Origin: Spirochaetota bacterium
GTDB taxonomy: Bacteria > Spirochaetota > Spirochaetia > Treponematales > Rectinemataceae
NCBI GenBank assembly: GCA_029265615.1
Contig: JAJUIB010000015.1
Location: 1 to 64,000, forward strand
Direction: 5' to 3'
Length of the DNA stretch: 64,000 bases
The translations under genes and the position numbers were made by a program. The number at the start of each line of letters is the position of its first letter. Positions within the stretch are counted from its first letter, which is position 1. The notes under the pieces were generated by a model. That model was not told where the DNA came from. It saw only the letters and a program-made list of their open reading frames with translations, and did not search any database. Shown piece after piece: positions 19,570 to 21,493 of the stretch.

Positions 19570-20475
19570 TTAAGTGTAGTGCAGCCCCGGGATGAGCGCA
19601 AGCGGCGCCGCCGGCGCGACGAAAGATGCAAAGGGCGCGCGGGAGAAAAGGCGCTTTGCCGCGAAGGCGGCCCGATCGGGATCGGGGAAAACACCATAGA
19701 CCGCCGATCCAGAGCCGCTCATCCGTGTGAATCGGGCCCCTTCGGATGCGAATAGGCCAATCAGCGTGGCAATGGCCGGATGTGCGGCGGCGACCGGCGT
19801 CTCGAAGGAATTAGCAAAACGCCATGCTTCAGGCGGCTTTGACGCGTAGCTTGCAAGGAGCTCCTCGACGGAGAGGTCGGGTTCATCTGCATCACTCGGG
19901 CGCAAGCGGTCCAGAAGCGAGTACGCGGCCGCAGTGCTGACGGGAAAGTCGGGAAAGGCGACGACGAGGGCGTAATCGGCGCGCGCAGGAATGGGCGACA
20001 CCACTTCACCACGCCCTTCCACGAGCGCCGCGGCGCCGCGCACAAAAAACGGCACATCGCTTCCGACCGAGGCCCCGAGCTCCGCAAGCTCCTCTTCGCC
20101 GAGGAATCCGGCACGATCGCCAAGAAGCAGATTGAGCGCCCTGAGCAGTGCCGCGGCATCGCTCGACCCACCGCCAAGCCCCGCGCCTGCGGGAATCGCC
20201 TTTTTGACCCGAATTGACAGACCACATCGCTCGCCGGTCCGCCGCCTGTACGCGATTACCGCTTTGTAAAGCGTTGTAGCCTCGGGGGGGCAGTCAAAGG
20301 AGCCTTCGATTTCGATTGAATCGGTCTCTTTCAAAGAACCGACGACAAGTTCGTCGGCGAGGGAGATGGCCTGAAATATGCTACGGATGTCGTGAAAACC
20401 GTCTTCGCGCCTCCCGTACACGCGGAGGTGGAGGTTGATTTTCGCCGGCGCCGAAACGATGACGGCCTTCTCCAT
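19570..20475 (-). CDS. ispE: 4-diphosphocytidyl-2-C-methyl-D-erythritol kinase IspE
   Basis: 301 residues. GHMP kinase of the MEP isoprenoid pathway, phosphorylating CDP-methylerythritol. Motif 1 PAKINLHLRV, glycine-rich ATP loop PAGAGLGGGSSDAA and the third GHMP motif MSGSGSAVYGVF are present. Normal length. The ATG is only nine bases after a consensus -10 box and has no ribosome site, so the mRNA is probably leaderless. A second MEP gene, ispG, lies at 52487-53548. Confidence 0.95.
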   Translation of the reverse strand: MEKAVIVSAPAKINLHLRVYGRREDGFHDIRSIFQAISLADELVVGSLKETDSIEIEGSFDCPPEATTLYKAVIAYRRRTGERCGLSIRVKKAIPAGAGLGGGSSDAAALLRALNLLLGDRAGFLGEEELAELGASVGSDVPFFVRGAAALVEGRGEVVSPIPARADYALVVAFPDFPVSTAAAYSLLDRLRPSDADEPDLSVEELLASYASKPPEAWRFANSFETPVAAAHPAIATLIGLFASEGARFTRMSGSGSAVYGVFPDPDRAAFAAKRLFSRAPFASFVAPAAPLALIPGLHYT

Positions 20476-20484
20476 CGCGGCGTT

Positions 20485-20512
20485 ATTATACCTATTCGCC
20501 GGGGATTGTCAA
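20485..20512 (-). promoter_or_regulatory. Near-consensus sigma70 promoter of ispE (leaderless start)
   Basis: Minus-strand TTGACA (20512-20507), 16-base spacer, TATAAT (20490-20485): both hexamers are perfect. The start codon at 20475 is nine bases past the -10 box, leaving a leader of about three bases and no space for a Shine-Dalgarno site. Confidence 0.8.
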
Positions 20513-20538: not shown

Positions 20539-20567
20539 TTGACAGAACCGCATATGCTCTTTTAGAT
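20539..20567 (+). promoter_or_regulatory. Sigma70-type promoter of the acidic protein gene
   Basis: TTGACA (20539-20544), 17 bases, TTAGAT (20562-20567). Divergent from the ispE promoter 26 bases away. The transcript would have a leader of about 95 bases (20574-20668) with a GGATC/GATCC inverted repeat and ending in GGGAGG before the ATG. Confidence 0.7.
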
Positions 20568-20668
20568 TTTCTCGTGGATCGGCCCTGGTTAAGGGAAGCG
20601 CGATCCGGATGCGTCGGCGGCCTTTCGTCGGTCGGGAGGCGCCATCATGCAGCTGGGAGGAATAGAAT

Positions 20669-20977
20669 ATGGTCCCTACCTACGGAGAGAGCGCGCTGGA
20701 CGCAGCCCCCGAGCTTGCGCTCATGCCCGCGGCGGGAAGCGCGTCCGCCTTCCCTTTCATGCGCTTCGATGACGGCTACGACGAATACGAGGACGACGAT
20801 TTCGAAGAGGACGAGGATTACGATGACCTCGATGACGAGGATCTCGACGAGGACGAGGACTTCGACGACGACGAGGACTTCGACGATGACGAGGACTTCG
20901 ACGATGAGGACGAAGGCGACGAAGACGAGGACTTCGACTACGAGGACGACGTCGACTACGACGACTTCGACGAGTAA
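20669..20977 (+). CDS. Hyperacidic Asp/Glu-rich small protein of unknown function
   Basis: 102 residues; ATG 20669 is preceded by GGGAGG at a good distance and by a promoter. Residues 1-31 are ordinary (MVPTYGESALDAAPELALM..); residues 32-102 are almost only D, E, F and Y, with repeated units such as EDFDDD. There are no cysteines and almost no basic residues, so the pI must be very low and the tail is probably disordered. An 18-base tandem repeat (20852-20905) encodes the central part. I recognise no family. Roles such as nucleic-acid mimicry, a histone- or RNA-polymerase delta-like tail, or cation binding are possible but unproven. Single-gene transcript ended by a strong hairpin. Confidence 0.8.
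   Translation: MVPTYGESALDAAPELALMPAAGSASAFPFMRFDDGYDEYEDDDFEEDEDYDDLDDEDLDEDEDFDDDEDFDDDEDFDDEDEGDEDEDFDYEDDVDYDDFDE
20852..20905 (+). repeat. Three 18-base tandem repeats in the acidic gene
   Basis: GACGAGGACTTCGACGAC at 20852-20869, then GACGAGGACTTCGACGAT at 20870-20887 and 20888-20905; each encodes DEDFDD. Flanking codons show decayed copies, so the acidic tail grew by in-frame duplication. Confidence 0.9.
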
Positions 20978-21009
20978 GTCCCTCGCTTCGGGGCCTTCCG
21001 CCATATAAG

Positions 21010-21051
21010 GGGGCCGCTTCGTGTGCCTCAAGGGGCACACGGGGCGGCCCC
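21010..21051. terminator. Long GC-rich hairpin between convergent genes
   Basis: GGGGCCGC..CGTGTGCC / GGCACACG..GCGGCCCC with a short loop forms a stem of about 16 pairs interrupted by two mismatches. It sits between the end of the acidic gene (+) and the end of rsfS (-), with no U-tract on either side. Probably a bidirectional terminator or mRNA end-stabiliser. Confidence 0.7.
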
Positions 21052-21094: not shown

Positions 21095-21493
21095 CTATGC
21101 GCCCTCCCTGGGGGCTCCCCCGGATAAACCACCCGGGGGAAGCGGCGCCTCGACCCTAATCGATTGCGCCTTGAACCAAAGCTTTTCGAGCTCGTAAAAG
21201 GCACGGGCGCGTTCCGTCATGAGATGAACGACCACGTCGCCCAGATCAATGAGCACCCATTCCTCGTCATCGGCGATGCGCGGCGCGTTGAGCCGTTGCA
21301 CCTTGTTTGTCACGGCCCACTCATCGGCGTAGCGAGCAAGGCCCCGCAGATGCGCGCTACTCGTCGCCGTAGCAAGCACAGAAAAATCGGTCCAGCCCGA
21401 CTCGGCCGCAAGGTCGAGCACGAGAACATCGCCGCCCTTGTGGTCGGCGAAGAGGCGGGCGAGGGACATCGCTGCATCTCGGCTATTTTGCAC
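21095..21493 (-). CDS. rsfS: Ribosomal silencing factor RsfS
   Basis: 132 residues from GTG 21493, chosen because GGGAGG lies four to five bases upstream; it overlaps the end of lytR by 11 bases. RsfS (YbeB/Iojap) binds L14 and blocks subunit joining during starvation. Typical elements: DHKGGDVLVLDLAAESGWTD, then FSVLATATSSAHLRGLA, and DDEEWVLIDLGDVVVHLM, with RAFYELEKLW at the end, followed by a Gly/Pro tail. Last gene of the rplU operon, in line with the frequent nadD-yqeK-rsfS order. Confidence 0.95.
   Translation of the reverse strand: MQNSRDAAMSLARLFADHKGGDVLVLDLAAESGWTDFSVLATATSSAHLRGLARYADEWAVTNKVQRLNAPRIADDEEWVLIDLGDVVVHLMTERARAFYELEKLWFKAQSIRVEAPLPPGGLSGGAPREGA

Follow-up and report, generated by a model that had tools for sequence, protein, structure and literature searches.

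The window, i.e., the whole stretch of 64,000 nucleotides that we analysed, carries on its forward strand a short gene encoding a protein made of a non-acidic N-terminal part and a long, extremely acidic tail (Table 1). The start, the stop, and the length of this reading frame all match those of the first-pass annotation, and its description as an acidic-aromatic tail protein is confirmed. The whole protein contains 38 Asp and 18 Glu, a single Arg, and neither Lys nor His, giving a calculated charge of around −55 at pH 7. Residues 33 to 102 comprise 37 Asp, 16 Glu, 7 Phe, 5 Tyr, 2 Leu, 2 Gly, and 1 Val (i.e., 12 aromatic residues); the tail had been said to contain only Asp, Glu, Phe, and Tyr, which holds for 65 of its 70 residues and is therefore slightly too strong. 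The gene is present in one copy in the window's genome and lies between rsfS and ispE, within a gene order, obgE-nadD-yqeK-lytR-rsfS-[hyperacidic gene]-ispE-spoVG-rplY, that is kept across families. Near this locus, we also observed rplY (L25/CTC) proteins with Glu-rich C-terminal tails (L237, L244, L250, L254, L267–L269, and L316).

The first-pass annotation was right in taking the DNA for that of a spirochaete. Its proposal of a single-gene unit, with a good ribosome site and a TTGACA promoter, was likewise borne out: GGGAGG is located 8 nt ahead of the ATG and the promoter matches the consensus at 10 of 12 positions. Two promoter-like sites were found between 20400 and 21200, for 0.1 expected, the second one being the divergent ispE promoter. 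The −10 hexamer of the latter ends around 10 nt before the ispE ATG (20475), which suggests that the ispE mRNA is nearly leaderless. The hairpin terminator that had been proposed for the hyperacidic gene is only partly right. A strong hairpin of 19 pairs, including three G-U, is present (the folded stretch has a z of −5.7), but it lacks a run of T on its 3' side and is not among the sites listed by the terminator scan.

Table 1. Features of the hyperacidic gene, its surroundings, and related acidic proteins at other loci.
Feature	Position	Strand	Remarks
CDS of the hyperacidic protein	20669..20977	+	102 aa and stop; single copy, homologues, dN/dS
N-terminal 32 residues	20669..20764	+	non-acidic, Leu/Pro/Ala-rich, variable; weakly conserved ELAL segment (alignment)
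Acidic tail, residues 33–102	20765..20974	+	53/70 D+E; F/Y regularly spaced; predicted disordered
C-terminal motif DYDDFDE and stop	20954..20977	+	conserved; pattern match, alignment of relatives
Ribosome-binding site GGGAGG	20655..20660	+	similar sites in relatives
Promoter TTGACA-N18-TAGATT	20539..20568	+	TTGACA at 20539, TAGATT at 20563–20568; conserved along with the gene
Leader, ~94 nt	20575..20668	+	putative start site placed from the promoter position
3' hairpin	21010..21051	+	no U-tract; between the convergent acidic gene and rsfS
rsfS	21095..21466	-	convergent neighbour; RsfS Pfam match
ispE	19570..20475	-	divergent neighbour; GHMP kinase domains
ispE promoter	20485–20512	-	perfect sigma-70 consensus TTGACA-16-TATAAT
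Minus-strand open frame	20645–21040	-	Val/Leu/Glu repeats mirroring the acidic repeat; no support as a gene
Member beside ispE in G039 (1,139,633 bp)	L194 1099–1314; L236	- (L194)	72 aa
Zn_ribbon_9 (CT398-like) with hyperacidic tail	L203 544–1566; L315 1937–2956; L330 1848–2882; L361 1709–2722		beside rpoD; families without the stand-alone gene
CarD with acidic C-terminal tail	L199 964–1623; L333 1462–2220		in G034 and G216

Conservation of the gene in the class Spirochaetia

The search beside ispE and rsfS in relatives, which the first-pass annotation had proposed, was strongly positive. A lack of homologues in related genomes, named there as the observation that would speak against the gene, is clearly contradicted by its presence in 57 of the order's 58 genomes, among which that of the window is counted (G049 and G052, assigned on composition alone, being less certain), and in 34 of the 41 families sampled from the class. 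A protein search matched 28 of the 58 genomes; the matched proteins align over their full length with a common C-terminus, and their loci all adjoin rsfS, except one at a contig end which adjoins ispE. Among the 30 genomes lacking such a match, rsfS was located in 29, and a hyperacidic frame was found at the same place and in the same orientation in 20, beside ispE in four (G019, G025, G039, and G047), and elsewhere in five (G031, G034, G049, G051, where it is close to spoVG, and G052). The single miss, G028, is an assembly that is 71% complete, in which rsfS was likewise not found. We also fetched 80 loci by LytR alignment, a set which overlaps the genome set and where L119 and L121 cover the same contig twice. 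In 74 of these loci, a frame with 60% D+E or more over 40 aa is present, always convergent with rsfS, and no further such frame was found in these loci outside this position; the six loci without it include L108 and L122, which end 181 and 456 bases past rsfS. A profile search of 24 genomes with the alignment of 58 members returned a single match, CarD, and missed members known to be present, so that its result was dropped as evidence of absence; composition filters probably suppress the family in such searches.

The class survey covered at least one locus per sampled family beyond the order and retained frames with at least 50% D+E over 30 aa; the window gene is itself a short open reading frame of this composition, convergent with rsfS. 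The 34 positive families (the five of the order counted) all carry the stand-alone gene beside rsfS, with the exception of f43, where it was found only at other places (L314, L342). Members from f39, f51, f58, f70, and one f6 genome are weak (only 0.53–0.60), and one of the two f47 genomes is positive (L313 and not L246). The stand-alone gene was not found in f7 (Borrelia-like), f9, f44, f49, f54, f62, and f65, its absence from f54 and f65 being provisional, as judged from the rsfS neighbourhood and a few pattern matches. Outside the class, none of 36 loci (35 genomes) has a hyperacidic frame in the stretch around rsfS. In G177, an assembly with 7% contamination, there are two rsfS matches (L249, L316), with a matching acidic C-terminal motif after both; this could reflect a duplication or a mixed assembly.

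The part of the protein expected to be conserved, its N-terminal 30 residues, is not the one that alignments mainly point to: conservation is stronger at the start of the acidic part and at the C-terminus. We searched the C-terminal pattern GAYTWYRANGANYTNGANGANTRR (i.e., [D][YF]xx[FL][DE][DE]-stop) independently of position and obtained 39 matches in 36 of 128 class genomes, versus one for the reversed control. Most of them (33 of 39) are located within around 200 bp of rsfS and convergent to it, and two more are the relocated genes of G031 and G034. The pattern shortened by one residue, which serves as a negative control, gave five matches in the 128 genomes. Among 100 distinct proteins, the last residue is Glu in 85, the third from the end Phe in 77, and the fourth from the end Asp in 90; L168, L171, and several f3 genomes depart from the motif. 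The dN/dS ratio (NG86, 12 close pairs) ranges from 0.052 to 0.295 in 10 pairs, dS being saturated in the two others. The 6760 tail residues of the 100 proteins consist of 51.0% Asp, 20.2% Glu, 12.0% Phe, and 4.8% Tyr, and contain only 0.09% Lys, 0.18% Arg, and 0.10% His, although Lys is one transition away from Glu. Adjacent aromatic pairs are also strongly avoided (14 versus 178 ± 12 in shuffles), and the gaps between aromatics vary less than in shuffled tails (coefficient of variation 0.54 versus 0.79 ± 0.02). The low dN/dS, the rarity of Lys, Arg, and His, and the even aromatic spacing thus indicate that charge and aromatic spacing are both kept by selection.

The promoter follows the gene. 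Of 97 distinct genes of the family, 91 have a perfect TTGACA at most 200 nt upstream, versus a background of 4.6% (660 of 14502 windows of the same loci). On the opposite strand of these upstream stretches, TTGACA occurs in 25, which may reflect the divergent neighbour. The genes without it are L112, L132, L051, L056, L168, and L176; for L112, TTGACA is present upstream of a different start, and the choice of start may matter for these exceptions. The element is extended to CTCTTTTAGATT in f1 and f4 and to CTC..TTATGTT in f5, several other families of the class show a related TTGACA-TTAGATT element, and TTGACA is accompanied by CTCTCATCTATTATAAT at the relocated genes of G031, G034, and G147. 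In the window's genome, TTGACA-N12-CTCTTTTA occurs a single time. The wider form, TTGACA-N10-12-CTCTTTTA, was found once each in six of the nine genomes searched, every time at the hyperacidic gene; in the three others, the promoter spacing is shorter by one base. A promoter shared with rRNA or other genes was thus ruled out, the element being found only at this gene in these six genomes.

The single copy, the class-wide homologues, the low dN/dS, and the aromatic spacing place this reading frame beyond chance, and we regard it as practically certain that it is a protein-coding gene conserved in single copy within the class. With its repeats, and with frames open in both directions, as the minus-strand frame illustrates, the sequence could be read as a chance open frame in a simple repeat or as the mirror of a minus-strand gene. 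Such an origin has virtually no chance of being correct: it is refuted by the class-wide conservation of synteny, frame, promoter, ribosome site, C-terminal motif, and dN/dS.

Acidic tails beside rpoD and the possible clients of the protein

In some of the families where the stand-alone gene was not found, another hyperacidic tail is present. In f9, f62, and f49 (four genomes in which no stand-alone gene was found), the Zn_ribbon_9 protein encoded beside rpoD carries a tail of 100–108 aa with 58–70 D+E; in four of five genomes with the stand-alone gene, the tail of this protein has 41–45 aa with 15–18 D+E. G053 breaks the pattern, with both a stand-alone gene and a 74-aa Zn_ribbon_9 tail containing 42 D+E, and the Borrelia-sized genomes G133 and G129, as well as G171 (f44), have neither the gene nor an acidic Zn_ribbon_9 tail; moreover, f9 and f62 are possibly related families. 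Relatives of Zn_ribbon_9 proteins bind sigma factors. According to PMC5947703, HP0958 and CT398 bind RpoN, and CT398, RpoN, and the core RNA polymerase form one complex. PMC6426960 describes a pull-down of RpoD by another relative, Wcw_1456, for which the authors obtained no confirmation with a second method. The acidic Zn_ribbon_9 tails beside rpoD in genomes where the stand-alone gene was not found are the single pointer that leads us to favour RNA polymerase as the client.

The first-pass annotation had mentioned nucleic-acid mimics and RNA-polymerase-associated proteins, a suggestion that is plausible. We tentatively propose, as one possibility, that the protein is a free-standing polyanionic nucleic-acid mimic whose client is most likely RNA polymerase or a sigma factor. 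It would be cytosolic, made in quantity, and would act in trans as a flexible mimic: through electrostatics, the acidic chain would compete with RNA or DNA for a channel bearing positive charge, with grip and specificity provided by the aromatic residues and the C-terminal motif. RNA polymerase would in this way be helped to release non-productive nucleic acid, a role comparable to the one that the Firmicute delta subunit owes to its acidic tail, but exerted without the folded domain of delta. A fuller version, which we consider doubtful, would make it a near-universal RNA polymerase accessory factor of the Spirochaetia and an analogue of the delta tail, the DYDDFDE end docking while the chain strips off stray nucleic acid, and the job passing to the Zn_ribbon_9 tail beside rpoD where the gene was lost; its small size, disorder, and low complexity could explain why such a factor has escaped notice. 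Several points weigh against RNA polymerase as client. The exchange of tails is seen in few genomes and has exceptions (G053; G133 and G129; G171), acidic tails are easily gained and are found on other proteins (CarD in G034 and G216), the neighbours rsfS, obgE, and rplY point equally to ribosomes and to transcription, and no sequence relation to delta is seen.

This neighbourhood, conserved across families, is an argument for a polyanionic chaperone of ribosomal proteins or assembly intermediates, whose acidic chain would shield newly made, very basic ribosomal proteins; a place among ribosome-maturation genes would fit such a role, and acidic disordered escorts of basic ribosomal proteins exist in eukaryotes. 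We nevertheless hold it to be rather unlikely. The hyperacidic gene shares a transcription unit with none of these neighbours and, where the gene order broke, it was kept with ispE (G039) or left both (G031, G034, and G147), so that the linkage may be simple inheritance. Composition, predicted disorder, and the wide distribution in the class would also suit a role on basic nucleoid proteins (HU-like), as their chaperone or antagonist, in which the protein would resemble, in free-standing form, the acidic parts of histone chaperones. We consider this role unlikely; in the loci examined, we noticed no nucleoid protein gene linked to the hyperacidic gene. The even spacing of the aromatics by acidic residues could instead belong to a condensate scaffold or a counter-ion buffer, where aromatics would act as stickers and let the chain coacervate with polyamines or basic proteins, or where the chain would bind divalent cations, in both cases with no single specific client. 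This would leave the C-terminal motif and the conserved start of the acidic part unexplained, and its chances appear slim.

The function could also reside in the nascent chain, the D/E-rich stretch destabilising the translating ribosome and thereby sensing magnesium or the state of the ribosome. In E. coli, nascent D/E-runs destabilise ribosomes and Mg2+ counteracts this effect, as stated in PMC9718836; an acidic run of at least eight residues is found in 41 of the 100 proteins, and the neighbour is rsfS. On the other hand, there is no same-strand downstream gene to regulate (rsfS being convergent), around 30 non-acidic residues, which protect, usually precede the run, and the last seven residues are under selection, yet leave the ribosome only at termination. 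We thus judge this reading very improbable.

Whatever its client, the gene is kept in nearly every genome of the order, including the 1.14-Mb reduced genome G039, and is traceable in most of the class. Being near-universal in the order and retained in a reduced genome, it likely does something basic, and no family model or PDB entry matched it despite this wide conservation. It is also a simple model in which to study how specificity can arise in a disordered chain built almost entirely from four types of residue. If it acts on RNA polymerase, a delta-like function would have evolved separately as a free protein; action on ribosomes or on the nucleoid would instead give bacteria a counterpart of the eukaryotic acidic escorts.

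Comparison with known acidic proteins

No known family had been recognised for this protein, and the libraries agree: none of the 58 members has a match in Pfam or NCBIfam, three proteins gave no match in PHROGs, and none was found among PDB sequences. Similarly, no description of the family was found in the open-licence literature of PubMed Central. AlphaFold2, run on the 58-row alignment, predicts an intrinsically disordered protein (pLDDT 58.9, pTM 0.16, no regular elements). The lack of a library match and of a predicted fold thus indicates that it is neither the delta subunit nor another named acidic family of these libraries.

FYDLN_acid proteins, which occur in bacteria, are short, of unknown function, and carry a long Asp/Glu-rich part preceded by a FYDLN motif, often with CXXC pairs. 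The window protein is likewise short with a long Asp/Glu-rich part, but it has neither the FYDLN motif nor CXXC pairs, and the 58 members match no such Pfam or NCBIfam model. The Zn_ribbon_9 proteins (CT398, HP0958) are closer in one respect, since their rpoD-adjacent members in f9, f62, and f49 bear a similar hyperacidic tail. However, these tails end without DYDDFDE, and the window protein has no coiled coil, no C4 zinc ribbon, no cysteine, and no Pfam match. In SSB-type acidic tails, a C-terminal hydrophobic tip such as IPF ends an OB-fold protein; the C-terminus of the hyperacidic family is mostly DFDE (last residue Glu in 85 of 100) and no Pfam match was obtained. Ocr, ArdA, and DMP12 are folded DNA mimics, whose high negative charge is thought to imitate nucleic acid. 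The hyperacidic protein resembles them in charge and differs from them by its predicted disorder.

Low-complexity acidic regions that stimulate RNA polymerase I are also known in Net1 (its CTR) and UBF, according to PMC6415870. Unlike the hyperacidic protein, these regions are attached to larger proteins and are Ser/Asp-rich, and we claim no homology with them.

The nearest functional model is the Firmicute delta subunit (RpoE), whose acidic C-terminal region resembles the hyperacidic protein in length, charge, and disorder. PMC7749165 reports that delta takes part in RNA polymerase recycling and that its C-terminal region has a net charge of −47 over residues 91–173, to be compared with around −55 over 102 aa here. 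Pfam gave no sequence relation to delta among the 58 members. Unlike delta, whose folded N-terminal domain docks on RNA polymerase, the hyperacidic protein has no folded domain predicted by AlphaFold2, and no HARE-HTH or sigma1.1-like domain of the delta type was matched by Pfam in any of the 58 members. What it has in common with delta is the long disordered polyanionic region, an extremely acidic chain of similar length and charge.
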